Shown here: in pieces, positions 10,811 to 36,947 of the stretch
How the letters are laid out: every line of letters begins with the position of its first letter
How positions within the stretch are numbered: the stretch's first letter is position 1
From: an uncultured Muribaculaceae bacterium
GTDB lineage: Bacteria; Bacteroidota; Bacteroidia; Bacteroidales; Muribaculaceae
Reading direction: 5' to 3'
NCBI GenBank assembly: GCA_944321875.1
Contig: CALUMX010000001.1
Coordinates: 62,001 to 126,000, forward strand
DNA: 64,000 bases
The notes under the pieces: generated by a model
What the model was told of the DNA's origin: nothing
The model's database searches: none
The model's input: only the letters and a program-made list of their open reading frames with translations
Position numbers and translations under genes: made by a program

Positions 10811-13150
10811 CTATCTCACGACCAAAATCTTGCTTACACAACCCTCCTTGCTACCGTCGGAAGATTGGGAAGCCAACACATAATAAACGCCTGTATTCAC
10901 TCGCGCACCCTGCATATTGGTAAGATTCCAGATAAACATACCGCCGTTGGAATATCCTGAATAAATGACGTTACCCGCAGCATCCGCAATCTTCACCTGA
11001 GAATTATCCATCAACCCGGTCACGGTAACAGGTCCCGTATATTCCGGACGGACAGGATTTGGATAAGCATAGACATTGCTGTAGTCGGGAGCTGCCCAAA
11101 CGGCATCACTGGCATAGACAAACAATCCTTTGCGCGTACCCACATAGATATTGTTGCTGTTCTTGTCACAAACCACATTGCCAATCTCATTGTCCGTAAT
11201 GTTACTGTTTTCGGCATTATAGTTGGCAAGAATCTCTGAACCGTCGGCCGACACCAGATAAAGTCCGGATGTCTGAGTTCCAACCCATTTTCGGTTGGCT
11301 CCATCAAAATCAAGACAAGTCACAACCAATCCATCAAGCAGGTAGTCTGCAAGGTTTGTACCGTCGTTACGCGCCACTTTTACGCGATTTACCACCAACT
11401 GACCGTCGAAAGCATCGCCCAAATCATTGATAATACCGATACCTGTGTTGGTTCCAATCCAAATACGGCCTTCCAAGTCCTTTTTCATGCAATAAATATA
11501 GCCGATTTCAAAGCGACGGCCATCCTGGTCAACGTAAGAGGAGATGGTGGTCTGACGGTCATCACTTGTATCAGTTGGGGTTCCGTTGTGGTCAACAATA
11601 TGCAGATTTGTAGTCCATACATTACTAGAAAAAGCAGCATAGCGGTCATCAACGTACATCTTGCTGAAGTAACCAATCACCAATTCGCCAAAATCAAAGC
11701 GAGTCCAGTCGCTGGGATTGTCAGAACCCAATTTGTCGGCCGGCAACACACATATCTGGTCATGCTTCAGTTCATAATCGTATTGCAAAGCCCAAAGATT
11801 ACCTGCATTGTCAAATTTCAAGTCACACACCAATGATGTCTTTGTGAATGGAGAATTACCCTCGCGCAGATATTTCACCAGACTTCCATCCTTGAAATTA
11901 TACAAGCCATTACCCCAGGTTCCCAACCAGATAGATGACGGATCTTTCGGCTCAAGAGAAAGAGAAATGGAACGATACAACTTTTTCGAACCGGTCATAT
12001 ATTCCTGTGGCAATTGGTTGGTCCATTGGCCATCTTTGAAAGAATTCAGACGTACGGCATAGTTATCTACCTTAATGACTCCCAATGAGTTTTCACCCGA
12101 ATTGGCAGTAGTCAGTGTATTGCCCTTCATATCCATCAGATAATGTTGGTCGACGGTAGGCATATTCGGACGGAAATTGTCATGCAACACGGTAGTCTGT
12201 CCGTTTTCCAATTTCACTTGTTTCACACCATTCAAATCTACGTTCCAGAACGAGCCATCACCTGCATAAGAGGAAAGGTAGGTACCGTCAATCTCAGCAG
12301 GGAGATTAACTTTCACTTTATTATCTGCTTTTGCATCCAACAAATAATAATATGTTTTATTAGGTACAATAAAACCTTTATTTGTACGACTGATTGGTCC
12401 ACAAGATTGTGTCTGAATCACCATAAGAGTCAATTCCTCTGGATTTGCTAAAGATTCTACACTAGCTCTATATAACCATCCTCCCTTCATTAAAAAATTA
12501 GTTTTATCTACTTTATAAAAAGAGAAAGATTCTTTACTCACATTTACCGGCTGAAACGATGAAAACTGATAATGCTTGTCATCTATTCCTGACCAATAGA
12601 TTGACTTGTCACAGCAGATATAGATATACTTATCCAAAGCTACAATTGAGGTAATGGCCTTGTTGTAGATGAACGATTCCTTTATGGAGTTATTCTTCAT
12701 ATTAACTACCACATAACCGAAATCGGTAGCCACATAAGCCTCATCGCCTCTGAAATCCACACTGTTGATTTTCTTGGAACCCGACATGACAATGTTTTTC
12801 AAATCCGGAATATTATAAACATTTCCGTCCTCATGAATCACATCCATGTTGGAATTGGCATAGACCACCAACAGATACTTATTATCATAGTTATAGTAAA
12901 TATTACTGATATCAGTATCTGAAAGGTCGTTCAACTCCGTATAAGAAATATTCTCATCGTTCTCCTTATCGTAGGCATACAACCATCCCGACGACAGGTA
13001 ATACAGATAGCGTTCCGTATCAATGATATTCTGCATGCTGCCCTCGTAGAACACACCATACATCGACCAGCTGCCCGTTTCCGATGCACGCATAGGGAAC
13101 GACAGTGCTGACAGCACACAAATCAATACCGCTAAAAACTTCCTTATCAT
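10811..13150 (-). CDS. porZ: PorZ-like two-propeller exported protein with type IX sorting-type C-terminus
   Basis: 779 residues: an N-terminal signal peptide (to about residue 22), beta-propeller repeats with two-component-regulator-type motifs such as [28 protein letters not shown] and [14 protein letters not shown], and a C-terminal domain beginning at [16 protein letters not shown]. PorZ of Porphyromonas gingivalis (776 residues) has this size and architecture and sits at the cell surface, delivering A-LPS to the type IX attachment complex. No other type IX genes are in the window, so the link is by similarity only. The gene starts 4 bp inside the end of rdgB. A generic propeller-domain protein is the alternative. 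Confidence 0.65.
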
Positions 13151-16670: not shown

Positions 16671-17648
16671 TTATTTTATCAAACCAAGATTTTTCGAAAT
16701 TTCAAGCATTCTGTTGATAGGACGCACCGCCTTCTCGCAGATTTCAGGGTCAACCGTGATTTCCGGTGACTCGTTCTTCAAGCAATCATAGATTTTCTCC
16801 AACGTGTTCAGACGCATGAAATGACACTCATTGCAAGCGCAGGTACTGTCGTCGGGAGGAGCCGGAATGAATTCCTTGTCCGGACACGCCTTCTTCATCT
16901 CATAGAGGATGCCTGATTCCGTCACGACGATGAACTTCTTCGCGTCGCTCTGAATAGCATAGTCGAGCAAGCCTTTTGTCGAACCAATCTTGTCGGCCAG
17001 CGCAAGCAGACTCTTCTTGCATTCCGGGTGAGCCAGCACTTTCGCATCGGGATGCTCTTTCTTCAGGTTCACCAGCTTCTCCACAGAGAACTTCTCATGA
17101 ATGATGCAGGCACCGTCCCAGAGGCGCATGTTGCGTCCCGTAAGACTGTTTATGTAATTGCCCAGATTGCGGTCAGGACTGAAGAGGATTTTCTCATCCT
17201 CCGGAAAACTGTTGACAATTTGCACCGCGTTGGATGAAGTGACAATAACGTCGGTCAACGCCTTCACGTCGGCAGTCGTGTTGGCGTAGCTTATCACTGT
17301 GTAGCCCGGATTCTCATCGATGAACTTCTGCAGGTCCTCGGCCGTACAGCTGTCGGCCAGCGAGCAGCCGGCGTTCAAGTCAGGCACAAGCACCTTCTTT
17401 CCCGGAGAGAGAATCTTCGCTGTCTCACCCATGAAATTCACACCACAGCTCACGATGATGTCAGCATCCGTCTGTGCGGCTTTCTGGGCCAGGGCAAGAC
17501 TGTCGCCGATGAAGTCAGAAATTTCCTGCACCTCGTCGCGTTGGTAATAGTGACCGAGAATGATGGCATTCTTCTCCTTTTTCAGTCTCTCGATTTCTTT
17601 CATCAGTTCCTGACGTCTTGCATCAGCGTTGCTTTTATCCACAGTCAT
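16671..17648 (-). CDS. nadA: Quinolinate synthase A
   Basis: 325 residues. Conserved Cys ligands for the 4Fe-4S cluster are found at LNAGCSLADSC (near 92-101), AHPECKKS and the CACNECHFM segment. HYYQRDEVQEISDFIGDS near the N-terminus is the dihydroxyacetone-phosphate/substrate region. NadA condenses iminoaspartate with dihydroxyacetone phosphate to make quinolinate for NAD. nadB and nadC are not in the window. It is the last minus-strand gene before the putative origin. Confidence 0.97.
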   Translation of the reverse strand: MTVDKSNADARRQELMKEIERLKKEKNAIILGHYYQRDEVQEISDFIGDSLALAQKAAQTDADIIVSCGVNFMGETAKILSPGKKVLVPDLNAGCSLADSCTAEDLQKFIDENPGYTVISYANTTADVKALTDVIVTSSNAVQIVNSFPEDEKILFSPDRNLGNYINSLTGRNMRLWDGACIIHEKFSVEKLVNLKKEHPDAKVLAHPECKKSLLALADKIGSTKGLLDYAIQSDAKKFIVVTESGILYEMKKACPDKEFIPAPPDDSTCACNECHFMRLNTLEKIYDCLKNESPEITVDPEICEKAVRPINRMLEISKNLGLIK

Positions 17649-17854
17649 AATTATAAATTTTATTTTTTTCTTTTTTAAAAAAGAGTTTTTCTGTTGTTTA
17701 TTATAGCCCGTTGATAAGCATAGTAACTTTTTGGCCGTTTTCTTGCTTTTTAACTTATTGATGTATGAATAAGGTTTACCACGGGTTTATCAACATTGAA
17801 TTGCTCTGAATAATAGCGGAATACTGCTTTTTTCAACAGCTTGTCAATATGTTG

Positions 17855-17862
17855 CAAAGTTA
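17855..17862 (-). promoter_or_regulatory. -7-like element upstream of nadA
   Basis: Reads TAACTTTG on the minus strand (TAnnTTTG), about 205 bp before the nadA start. No good -33 TTTG partner is visible, so confidence is limited. Confidence 0.35.
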
Positions 17863-18067
17863 ATAATTTTCTATGGTTATTTCTGTGTTTTTTTGTTGAA
17901 AAGGTGTGTAATAGTCAATAATTCATTTTTGCTAACTTTTTTTGGAAAGACAATAATTTTTACATACAAGCCTGATTCTGAACTTCCAAATATATTTTTC
18001 GTTTCTTGTTTTTATCTTATTTACGGTTTTCAACGCAGTTATCAACAAATTGTTGGTAATTGTTTGC

Positions 18068-18075
18068 TAACTTTG
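18068..18075 (+). promoter_or_regulatory. -7-like element upstream of trmH-family gene
   Basis: TAACTTTG fits TAnnTTTG and lies 33 bp before the ATG at 18109. TTG triplets at 18050 and 18053 are closer than the usual 19-21 bp spacing, so the -33 box is unclear. Confidence 0.5.
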
Positions 18076-18108
18076 TATCCGGCTTTAAACTAATAATTTA
18101 TCTTGTTT

Positions 18109-18636
18109 ATGAAGAAGAAATCAATGGAGGAATTGCAGCGTCTTTCGTGCGAGGAATACCACAAGGTGGCGAAACTGCCCATTGTGGTGGTGCTTGACGA
18201 TGTGCGCAGTCTCAACAATATAGGTTCAATGTTCCGTACGGCTGATGCTTTTCTTATTGAGAAGATTTATTTGTGCGGCATTACGGCTACCCCTCCTAGC
18301 CCTGAAATCCACAAGACAGCGCTCGGCGCGGAGGATTCGGTTGAATGGGAGTATGTTACGGATGCTGTCTCTTTGGTCGACAGGTTGAAATCGGAAGGTT
18401 ATACGGTCTGTGCCATTGAGCAGGTCAACGGCAGTGTCAATATGCTCGATTTTGCTGTGGATAAAGAAAAGAAATATGTAGTTATCCTTGGTAACGAGGT
18501 GAAAGGGGTAAACCAGGAGGTTGTTGATAAAGTGGATTACTGCATTGAATTGCCGCAGTACGGAACGAAACATTCGCTGAATGTGTCAATAACTGCCGGT
18601 ATCGTGATGTGGCATTTCTTCACAGCCCTGAAATAA
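18109..18636 (+). CDS. TrmH/SpoU-family RNA 2'-O-methyltransferase
   Basis: About 175 residues. I start at the ATG at 18109; a TTG six bases earlier is less likely. SPOUT motifs are visible: LDDVRSLNNIGSMFRTADAF (motif 1, with the Asn-Arg pair), VVILGNEVKGVNQEVVD (motif 2) and IELPQYGTKHSLNVSITAGIV (motif 3, split here). The knotted fold binds S-adenosylmethionine and methylates ribose in tRNA or rRNA. The exact target position cannot be read from the sequence. It is a minimal catalytic domain lacking an N-terminal RNA-binding extension, and stands alone between two non-coding gaps. Confidence 0.92.
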   Translation: MKKKSMEELQRLSCEEYHKVAKLPIVVVLDDVRSLNNIGSMFRTADAFLIEKIYLCGITATPPSPEIHKTALGAEDSVEWEYVTDAVSLVDRLKSEGYTVCAIEQVNGSVNMLDFAVDKEKKYVVILGNEVKGVNQEVVDKVDYCIELPQYGTKHSLNVSITAGIVMWHFFTALK

Positions 18637-18809
18637 TAATGTTTGGGTTGTTCACAATCTTGTGCATAACCTGTGAATTGTAAAGAAAGTACTATTGATT
18701 ATCAGCGAAATAAATGTTTATAATAAGTTGTGAACTTGTTGAAAACGTTGAAGGCTGATGATGTTATAAACAGTGTTTATTGATGAAATAAATTGGTTGA
18801 TACCGCTAT

Positions 18810-18856
18810 AACGGGTCATTCACGAATGGATTTTCCTCGTGAATGACCCGTTTGTT
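18810..18856 (+). terminator. Strong hairpin downstream of trmH-family gene
   Basis: Perfect 16-bp inverted repeat AACGGGTCATTCACGA (18810-18825) and its complement (18837-18852) with an 11-nt loop. A short T-rich stretch follows (TTTGTTATT). It lies about 170 bp past the stop codon, inside the candidate origin region, so it may be a terminator or a structural element of the origin. Confidence 0.6.
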
Positions 18857-19260
18857 ATTGACAATCAGTTGTTGACAGCATGTTTATAGGGTTTATATTA
18901 TATTGTTTATCAGTAGTTTAAATGTTTATAATTTGTTTATATCCTGATGATAGCGTGTTAACGTGTTGTTGATGACAAGGTTGTTTCAATTATTGACAAT
19001 GTTGTTGATAATCTTGTAAACAACTTGTTTATATGAATAAAATAGCTTTGATTATCAATTATTTAAATGTTGATAGTTTGTTGATAGTCTGTGAATAGTC
19101 CGGATAGTGATTTTTTGAGAAAAAAAGGGGGATTTGCGTGTGGTTGGGGGATTGTCAGTAAGGGATTGGATGTAATTCACAAAGTTGTCAACATTGTTGA
19201 TACGATAGGAAAGAAAGCCAACAATAAAACGGGATACGGGTTAAACCCAAAGGGTTTTCT

Positions 19261-19292
19261 TTTGTCTATGTCTTCGATTTGCACTAATTTTG
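19261..19292 (+). promoter_or_regulatory. Promoter for U32-family gene
   Basis: TTTG at 19261-19264, a 20-bp spacer and TAATTTTG at 19285-19292 match the Bacteroidetes sigma-ABfr pattern. It lies 71 bp before the ATG at 19364. Confidence 0.75.
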
Positions 19293-19363
19293 CAGAACAA
19301 AAGCATTGATAATGCTGTATTTAGAAAAAGTAATTGTTCGTAATTCACACTAATATACGCAAT

Positions 19364-20632
19364 ATGAATAGAAAAGACTTTGAAATAATGGCTCCGGTAG
19401 GCTCTTATGAGTCACTTTATGCCGCCATTCAGGGAGGTGCGGATGCCATTTATTTCGGAATAGAGGGATTGAACATGCGTGCCAAGTCGTCCAATAACTT
19501 TACGGTAGAGGATTTGCACCAGATTGCGCGCACCTGCAGCGAGAACGGCATGAAGAGTTATCTGACGGTCAACACGGTGGTCTACGACGAGGACATTGAG
19601 CTGATGCATCAGATTGTAAATGCTGCCAAAGAGGCGCAGATTTCAGCCATTATCGCTTCCGACATGGCAACTATTCTGTATGCGAGAAGCATTGGTGTGG
19701 AGGTACACATTTCTACGCAGGTCAACATTTCCAACACGGAAGCGTTGCGTTACTACGCGCAGTATGCCGACGTGGTGGTGTTGGCGCGCGAGCTGAATCT
19801 GACGCAGGTGGCTGGCATCTACGACAACATTGTCAAGGACGACATCCGTGGTCCTCACGGAGAGCCTGTCAGAATTGAGATGTTTTGTCACGGCGCATTG
19901 TGCATGGCCGTGTCGGGCAAATGCTATCTGAGCCTGCATGAGATGAATCGTTCGGCCAACCGTGGAGCCTGCACGCAGATTTGTCGTCGTGGCTATGAGG
20001 TGAAGGATTTGGAGACCGGAGAGCAATTGGCCATCGAGAACAAATACATCATGTCGCCGAAGGATTTGAAAACCATCCATTTCATGAACAAGATGATTGA
20101 CGCCGGTGTGCGTGTGTTCAAAATCGAGGGTCGTGCCCGTAGTGCCGAATATGTGCGTACGGTGGTTTCCTGTTACAATGAAGCCATTCAGGCATGTGTC
20201 GACGGTACGTTCTCCGAAGAGAAAGTGGCAGGATGGGACGAGCGCCTGAACAAGGTGTTCAACCGTGGTTTCTGGAACGGCTATTACCTCGGTCAGCGTT
20301 TGGGCGAATGGACTTCGAAATACGGCTCATCGGCTACGCGGGTGAAGATTTATGCGGCCAAGGGTATGCGCTATTTCTCCAACATTCATGTGGCCGAGTT
20401 CCTTATGGAGAACGACGAGCTACATGTAGGAGATGAGATTGTTATTTCAGGACCTACTACGGGAGCCATCATCATGAAAGTGGAGGAAATCCGTGTCGAC
20501 TTGAAGCCGGTGGAAAAAACCGTGCGTGGCGAACGTTTCTCCATCAAGGTGGACGAGCGGGTGCGTCCGAGCGACAAGCTGTATATATGGCGTGATGTCG
20601 AGGAAGTGCGCCGCCAGCGTGTCATCGAATAA
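19364..20632 (+). CDS. U32-family protein, tRNA uridine 5-hydroxylation (TrhP/YegQ-like)
   Basis: 422 residues starting at the ATG at 19364; an upstream TTG in the same frame would add ten unlikely residues. The peptidase U32 signature is present as EMFCHGALCMAVSGKCYLS with the following NRGACTQICRRGY, giving a set of four Cys for an iron-sulphur cluster. An N-terminal TIM-barrel (APVGSYESLYAAIQGGADAIYFG) precedes it. E. coli TrhP makes 5-hydroxyuridine at tRNA position 34 from prephenate-dependent chemistry; this protein probably does the same. It is followed after 8 bp by mnmD, another wobble-uridine enzyme, which fits a tRNA-modification role better than proteolysis. Confidence 0.85.
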   Translation: MNRKDFEIMAPVGSYESLYAAIQGGADAIYFGIEGLNMRAKSSNNFTVEDLHQIARTCSENGMKSYLTVNTVVYDEDIELMHQIVNAAKEAQISAIIASDMATILYARSIGVEVHISTQVNISNTEALRYYAQYADVVVLARELNLTQVAGIYDNIVKDDIRGPHGEPVRIEMFCHGALCMAVSGKCYLSLHEMNRSANRGACTQICRRGYEVKDLETGEQLAIENKYIMSPKDLKTIHFMNKMIDAGVRVFKIEGRARSAEYVRTVVSCYNEAIQACVDGTFSEEKVAGWDERLNKVFNRGFWNGYYLGQRLGEWTSKYGSSATRVKIYAAKGMRYFSNIHVAEFLMENDELHVGDEIVISGPTTGAIIMKVEEIRVDLKPVEKTVRGERFSIKVDERVRPSDKLYIWRDVEEVRRQRVIE

Positions 20633-35550: not shown

Positions 35551-36660
35551 ATGATACTGAATCGTCTGAACATATCCAACTATAAGAACATCGCGGAAGC
35601 CCAACTGGAGTTTTCGCCGAAGGTCAATTGCCTGCTGGGCAACAACGGTATGGGAAAGACGAACATTCTGGACGCAATTTTCTATCTGAGTTTCTGCCAG
35701 AGCTCGCTCTCGCGGGGCGATGCCGCCACGGTGCGCTTTGGCGAGGAGTTCATGCTGCTGCAAGGTGCTTACGAGCGGCGCGGACAGGTGGAGAATGTGA
35801 CGTGTGCCATTCAGAAAGGCAAGCGTAAGTCCATTAAGCGCAACGGAAAGGAATACAAGCGGCAGAGCGAGCATATCGGTCTGCTGCCGCTTGTGTTGGT
35901 GTCGCCCAACGACTGGAACCTCATATCGGGCGGCGGAGAGGAACGCCGCCGGCTCATTGACCGCATCATCTCGCAGGGCAACCGTGAGTATCTGGAGGCT
36001 CTGATTGCCTACAACCGGGCGATGGAGCAGCGCAACGCGATGCTGAAGCAGGGTTTCAATGACGCTCTGCTGTTTGAGACGGTCGATATGCTTCTGTCGC
36101 GTGCGGCTACGGCGGTCAACCACGGCCGCCGGGAGTGGATTGAGCGGTTTACGCCGATTTTCATGCGCTACTACAACGAGATTTCAGGCAGCAACGAGAC
36201 CGTCCGTCTCGACTATCGCAGCGAGCTGAACAGCAAGCCGATGGAGGTGCTGCTCCGGGAGAATTTCAGCCGTGATATTGCCCTCGGCTATACCTCGCAG
36301 GGCGTTCACCGCGACGATATCGAGCTGATGCTCGGCGACGAACTGATGCGCCGTATCGGCTCACAGGGACAGTGCAAGACCTACACGATTGCCCTGAGGC
36401 TCGCGCAGTTTGAATTTCTGAAGCAGCTTTCGGGCATAACCCCCCTACTCCTTCTTGATGATATCTTTGACAAGCTCGACGCCAACCGCGTGGCCAACAT
36501 CATGCACATCGTGAGCCGCAGCGATTTCGGGCAGATATTCATCTCCGACACCAACCGTCAGCACATCGACGAGACCATCGAGGCCGTGGGCAGCGATTAC
36601 CGGATTTTCCAGGTGGAGAACGGCGTATGCAGCCCGTTGCAGAAAGGAGGCGAGGCATGA
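35551..36660 (+). CDS. recF: DNA replication/repair protein RecF
   Basis: 369 residues, SMC-like ATPase. Walker A GNNGMGKT at 30-37, Walker B LLLLDDIFDKLD, and the RecF-specific GYTSQGVHRDD block before the C-terminal half. RecF helps load RecA at gapped or stalled forks with RecO and RecR. It lies about 16 kb from the candidate origin. TAAATTTG at 35539-35546 is a possible -7 box, although close to the start. Confidence 0.96.
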   Translation: MILNRLNISNYKNIAEAQLEFSPKVNCLLGNNGMGKTNILDAIFYLSFCQSSLSRGDAATVRFGEEFMLLQGAYERRGQVENVTCAIQKGKRKSIKRNGKEYKRQSEHIGLLPLVLVSPNDWNLISGGGEERRRLIDRIISQGNREYLEALIAYNRAMEQRNAMLKQGFNDALLFETVDMLLSRAATAVNHGRREWIERFTPIFMRYYNEISGSNETVRLDYRSELNSKPMEVLLRENFSRDIALGYTSQGVHRDDIELMLGDELMRRIGSQGQCKTYTIALRLAQFEFLKQLSGITPLLLLDDIFDKLDANRVANIMHIVSRSDFGQIFISDTNRQHIDETIEAVGSDYRIFQVENGVCSPLQKGGEA

Positions 36661-36947
36661 AAAAGACCGAGCCGATGGCCATCGGCGAGATTATGCGTCA
36701 GTATCTCAACCCTTCGGAGCTCGACCGCAGCATCAACGAGCGTCGTCTGGAGGCTTTCTGGCCGGAGGTGGTGGGGCCTTACATCAACCGTCACACGGAG
36801 CGCCGCTATGTCAGCCGCCGTGTCCTGCACGTGATTATCACCTCCGCACCTCTCCGCAACGACCTGATGATGCTCCGCTCGTCGCTGGTGAAGCGTTTGA
36901 ACGAAATCACGGGCGCGGATGTTATAGATGATATAGTTTTCAAATAG
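36657..36947 (+). CDS. DUF721 protein (DciA-like)
   Basis: 96 residues starting at the ATG at 36657, whose ATGA overlaps the recF stop. The family pattern is visible as GEIMRQYLN, AFWPEVVGPYINRHTE and VLHVIITSAPLRNDLMMLRSSLVKRLNE. DUF721 includes DciA, the ancestral loader of the replicative helicase DnaB in bacteria without DnaC/DnaI. Coupling to recF near a candidate origin fits replication, but short DUF721 proteins in Bacteroidetes are not all tested. Confidence 0.88.
   Translation: MKKTEPMAIGEIMRQYLNPSELDRSINERRLEAFWPEVVGPYINRHTERRYVSRRVLHVIITSAPLRNDLMMLRSSLVKRLNEITGADVIDDIVFK

Follow-up and report, generated by a model that had tools for sequence, protein, structure and literature searches.

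The locus described here lies in a stretch of 64,000 nucleotides (the window; bases 62001–126000 of contig C1, 192,320 bp) from an uncultured Muribaculaceae bacterium, whose genome of 2.70 Mb is split over 45 contigs. Coordinates for this genome are window positions. Two intergenic gaps, one between nadA and a trmH-family gene and one between that gene and a peptidase gene, stand where gene direction changes, with leuS as the next gene beyond nadA on the left side. The relevant genes are:

16671..17648, minus strand: nadA, quinolinate synthase, left neighbour of the core gap (NCBIfam NF006878, 454 bits)
18109..18636, plus strand: SpoU/TrmH-family RNA methyltransferase gene (trmH), between both box clusters (Pfam PF00588)
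19364..20632, plus strand: U32-family peptidase gene, right neighbour (Pfam PF01136)
35551..36660: RecF
36627..36947: DciA (Pfam DciA)

The initial annotation had proposed a replication origin at a switch in gene direction, with recF and a DciA-like gene 16–18 kb off and no dnaA nearby, and this gene setting was borne out. All genes to the left of the locus in the window are on the minus strand and those to the right mostly on the plus strand, both recF and the DciA gene are in place, and dnaA was found on a separate contig (C11), where the genome encodes a DnaA with its box-binding domain (Bac_DnaA and Bac_DnaA_C matches). A PorZ-like type IX secretion protein gene (10811–13150, minus strand; NCBIfam NF052228, 512 bits) was also observed to the left of the candidate origin.

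The nadA–trmH gap holds an array of five DnaA-box-like sites (boxes A–E) that spans 17,709–18,047:

17649..18108: predicted core oriC, the gap between nadA and trmH, which carries the conserved array of five sites; skew minimum at 17670, geometry common to relatives
17646..17705: candidate DNA unwinding element 1, of very low duplex stability (only two 60-bp stretches of the 192-kb contig are less stable)
17709..17717, minus strand: Box A, TTATCAACG, at exactly -121 from the dyad, 78 bp to the left of box B
17787..17795, plus strand: Box B, TTATCAACA, an exact copy at -43 from the dyad
17830..17850: Boxes C and D, a degenerate dyad TTTTCAACA-GCT-TGTCAATAT with one mismatch per half against the family element TTATnAACAnnnTGTTnATAA
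17853..17866, minus strand: TTATTAACTTTGCA, probably the -7 element of the nadA promoter; it contains TAACTTTG and is conserved beside nadA
18039..18047, plus strand: Box E, TTATCAACA, +209 from the dyad, with a near-matching inverted partner at 18051

All five array positions are present in the window (17709, 17787, 17830, 17842, and 18039), and the dyad lies at the distance from the nadA start that is modal among relatives, 181 bp. Box B and the dyad together carry two mismatches over 21 fixed positions, while shuffled sequences never had four or fewer. The probable promoter element TTATTAACTTTGCA fits TAnnTTTG, the Bacteroidota consensus. Beyond trmH, a second set of features occupies the gap before the peptidase gene:

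18637..19363: second DnaA-box cluster, seven TTATNNACA vs 0.43 in shuffled sequence
18810..18852: perfect 16-bp inverted repeat (11-nt loop) that falls within the second cluster
18883..18942: candidate DNA unwinding element 2, ranked fourth for low stability among the 60-bp stretches of the contig
18990..19011: two boxes in inverted orientation, TTATTGACA-ATGT-TGTTGATAA, with a 4-bp gap

Positions 19008–19067 form the seventh least stable 60-bp stretch, with which the locus accounts for three of the seven lowest-stability stretches in the 192-kb contig (starting at 17646, 18883, and 19008). The inverted repeat at 18810–18852 is probably the terminator of trmH; as an origin element it was discarded, being not conserved, with similar but unrelated hairpins in some relatives only.

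Exact copies of TTATCAACA lie where the initial annotation had placed them (17787 and 18039, plus strand; 19003–19011, minus strand), as does TTATGCACA (18661–18669, minus strand), and an additional TTATCAACA that it had overlooked is found within trmH (18522, minus strand). The window holds 20 copies of TTATNNACA compared to 6.2 ± 2.6 after shuffling, a count reached in 0 of 100 shuffles, with 13 of them in the 1.73 kb from 17635 to 19363 (shuffled mean, 0.69; 0/2000 dinucleotide shuffles). The seven copies in the trmH–U32 gap were likewise matched in 0/2000, while the nadA–trmH gap has just two exact boxes, a modestly unusual number that 32 of 2000 shuffles equalled. Chance is therefore excluded by the shuffles for the whole cluster and for the trmH–U32 gap. 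Genome-wide there are 50 copies of TTATCAACA, four of which fall inside 1.25 kb at the locus, and the density of TTATNNACA is 10/kb here compared to ≤4/kb in other sampled sequence of the same genome. A box matrix trained on relatives alone, with the organism's own genome left out, recovered 34 sites in 1.8 kb at the locus (18.9/kb) compared to 1.35/kb over the remainder of the contig, a 14-fold difference.

Using contig C1 plus samples of other sequence, it was possible to follow GC skew beyond the window. Over the full 192,320-bp contig, the cumulative skew descends for ~80 kb and then ascends for ~112 kb, with a single V-shaped minimum at 17670; the minimum anticipated by the initial annotation is thus present, as seen on one 192-kb contig of 45. 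Third-position skew was negative to the left of the locus (plus genes, -0.299; minus genes, -0.057) and positive to the right (plus genes, +0.073; minus genes, +0.308). The sign changes at the locus in genes of both strands alike, and since it is the same for both gene strands on each side, the skew tracks replication and not coding direction; the initial annotation had concluded from a few lines of sequence that the switch does not follow gene strand.

The array recurs among the Muribaculaceae. In relatives a minus-strand box is followed after 78 bp by a plus-strand box and after another 43 bp by the dyad, two inverted boxes 3 bp apart, with a last plus-strand box 190–212 bp on, the whole located ~180 bp upstream of nadA. 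The 21-bp dyad TTATnAACAnnnTGTTnATAA occurs 142–200 bp from the nadA start (mode, ~181), with a box at exactly -43 in 81 of 84 relatives, a box (≤1 mismatch) at -119 to -123 in 62 of 84, and a box at +188 to 192, +198 to 201, or +208 to 213 in 76 of 82 (control offsets, 11%). It is nearly single-copy, being present in 66 of 119 family genomes at about one copy each (reversed-pattern control, 2), and in other members of the genus the nadA-side dyad is exact. An order-wide sample of 198 genomes had the box-43-dyad pattern in one genome only, a member of the family, and not in the other 197. A conserved TAACTTTG-like -7 element of nadA lies directly next to the dyad in relatives, which makes an overlap of the boxes with the start of transcription probable.

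A scan of named genomes with 22 fixed bases, leaving box position 6 open, matched at least 118 stretches, of which at least 72 were within 1.5 kb of nadA and at least six were beside dnaA in Bacillota. Among the matches listed, the named genomes were mainly Muribaculaceae (Muribaculum, Duncaniella, Paramuribaculum, and Heminiphilus) with the same nadA setting. Other labels among the matches listed (Porphyromonadaceae, Bacteroides sp., and even Bacillota) look like loosely named or mislabelled MAGs.

In two further genomes the array region could be placed relative to the skew of the chromosome. For G091, a single-contig chromosome sampled round its length and read continuously over 1.34–1.43 Mb, the skew turns at 1,376,725 (nadA 1,380,235; dnaA ~782 kb), and the dyad beside nadA is 3.3 kb away from the minimum; in G057 the turn at 2,945,817 is 1.6 kb from nadA. 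Both minima fall within the nadA region of the fetched sequence, with matching signs in the samples round the chromosome. Where nadA has been relocated, the dyad remains ~0.3 kb from a local skew minimum in G065 and G105 and, less sharply, 2.8 kb from one in G032, and the sequence context read directly in G065 shows the 43-bp box retained with the dyad. No nadA -7 element was found beside the dyad in these three genomes, and the separated nadA copies fetched from G065 and G032 have no dyad. There was no clear skew switch at the dyads of G037 (second copy), G055 (extra copy on C24), G069, and G112. As an origin anchor, trmH was rejected, given that in G091 it lies 0.12 Mb from the switch whereas nadA is at the switch. 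The G091 chromosome also carries, in many places, a frame of 262 aa in ~25 near-identical copies with a weak match to Bac_DnaA; it probably encodes an IstB-like ATPase belonging to a multicopy insertion sequence. At two loci (L254 in G032 and L270 in G007), nadA and leuS sit at a plus-to-minus skew switch that lacks a dyad, as though nadA had been moved off by an inversion with a breakpoint beside the origin; rearrangements linked to the origin do seem to happen in this family.

The boxes are of an unusual type. Among the matches listed, position 6 of boxes in nadA-linked arrays is A in 96, T in 33, G in 10, and C in 2 (n = 141), compared to C in 77 of 87 Bacillota boxes listed from the same scan. 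The nadA-linked arrays thus depart in one base from the canonical box TTATNCACA, which has C at this position; C also stands there in all of the nine-base DnaA boxes tabulated in a review (PMC4285127). The recognition helix of the organism's DnaA (contig C11, locus L001) reads RNHATV, with R424-N425-H426-A427-T428 at the site that is RSH or RQH in four relatives and KDH or RDH in the other Bacteroidales families inspected; Asp433 (E. coli numbering) is listed as a box-contact residue of DnaA (PMC7561715). Order-wide (91 of 119 genomes), box pairs with A at position 6 exceeded the reversed control in 53 genomes and fell below it in 19, and pairs with C, judged by eye, showed no clear excess. 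Loss of Asp433 as the cause of A at position 6 is unsupported, as such pairs are also enriched in families whose DnaA keeps the Asp.

In the 17 genomes with the nadA(-)–trmH(+) order, there are 7.8 boxes/kb ahead of trmH and 6.3/kb after it, compared to 1.7 and 0.93/kb for trmH elsewhere, where some instances are truncated or unrecognised origin loci. The second cluster (18.6–19.3 kb) is confined to relatives that share this gene order. A gene flanked by two box clusters, the arrangement of a bipartite origin, is found here, and judged from its sequence the locus looks like such an origin with trmH as an unusual spacer gene, with cooperation of the clusters putative. A fuller proposal, held tentatively and on balance doubtful, is a split origin that joins trmH as a non-dnaA spacer to a rigid five-site array whose boxes are non-canonical (TTATnAACA, in which position 6 is almost never C) and to a DnaA recognition helix without the otherwise conserved Asp433.

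Taken together, the contig-wide skew minimum, the box cluster, the low duplex stability, the conservation of the array, the coincidence with skew in G091 and G057, and the lack of a nearby dnaA point to this locus as the chromosomal oriC of the Muribaculaceae bacterium, with a probability of about 0.93. The identification made in the initial annotation therefore stands, except that the conserved core is the nadA–trmH gap (17.7–18.05 kb) and not the part that it favoured (18.6–19.3 kb). DnaA, encoded elsewhere, would bind boxes A–E plus the cluster beyond trmH, and the bound protein would form an oligomer and melt an adjacent unstable stretch, either 17646–17705 or 18883–19067; melting would be followed by helicase loading and the departure of two forks in opposite directions. 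We infer DnaA binding, melting, the start site, and cooperation of the clusters across trmH from these sequence features.

A variant of the oriC reading, the probability of which overlaps that given above, is that the trmH–U32 cluster alone (18.6–19.3 kb) is the functional origin, with the boxes on the nadA side an ancestral core in decay. The seven exact boxes there, the most of any part of the locus, together with two very unstable stretches and the degenerate nadA-side dyad of this genome, would fit this variant; the skew minimum at 17670, the family spacing of all five core positions, and the exact nadA-side dyad of other genus members make it unlikely. Much less probable is an array that serves as a nadA operator, bound by a transcription factor or by DnaA acting as one, with a skew switch that is coincidental or due to divergent gene orientation. 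The dyad of relatives does abut the -7 element of nadA, and DnaA may regulate nadA besides its role at the origin, but the dyads of G065, G105, and G032 stay near a skew minimum with neither nadA nor that element, the separated nadA copies of G065 and G032 are free of the dyad, the switch extends over 192 kb in genes of both strands, and the box cluster continues past trmH. An assembly join or inversion breakpoint behind the skew change, with boxes arising by chance in AT-rich DNA, is the least credible account: nadA does occur at skew switches of opposite sign in G007 and G032, but 17 genomes share the nadA–trmH order with boxes before and after trmH, and the dinucleotide shuffles rule out chance for the cluster.

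Muribaculaceae are abundant gut bacteria, and an origin-finding rule (box-43-dyad ~180 bp from nadA) would permit growth-rate estimates from coverage and the construction of origin plasmids; it would also allow testing of the recognition by DnaA of boxes that lack C at position 6, and of whether a split origin tolerates a spacer that is not dnaA. The literature searched held no account of a nadA address, a fixed array geometry, boxes without C at position 6, or a possible split around trmH; these are apparently undescribed, though a DoriC entry may already name the locus.

That oriC is distant from dnaA in Bacteroidetes has been stated already (PMC4755523). The origins predicted there for Prevotella intermedia OMA14 and other Bacteroidetes (Ori-Finder/DoriC) likewise combine a skew transition with several DnaA boxes and a distant dnaA, but the boxes there were identified by means of the E. 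coli motif, and the text consulted gives no nadA address, fixed geometry, or box variant. In Bacillota, stretches that fit box-43-dyad include, beyond the dnaA regions (at least six), at least five upstream of ywlC (L210, L178, L199, L243, and L151) and at least one in the gcp/ydiF gap (L152). The regions upstream of dnaA and ywlC and at gcp/ydiF are among the strongest DnaA-binding regions in Bacillus subtilis (PMC4447404), and these matches of relatives at DnaA-bound regions support the elements of the Muribaculaceae array being DnaA boxes. The non-origin regions of B. subtilis differ in having a regulatory or titration role and C at box position 6 (PMC4447404). The 43-bp geometry in Bacillota can have arisen by chance inside dense box clusters, and universality does not follow from it. 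The closest parallels in layout are the bipartite origins of B. subtilis, Helicobacter pylori, and Clostridioides difficile (PMC4285127, PMC7561715), where two box clusters likewise flank a gene; there the spacer is usually dnaA and the boxes are CACA-type, whereas at the Muribaculaceae locus the spacer is a trmH-family gene.
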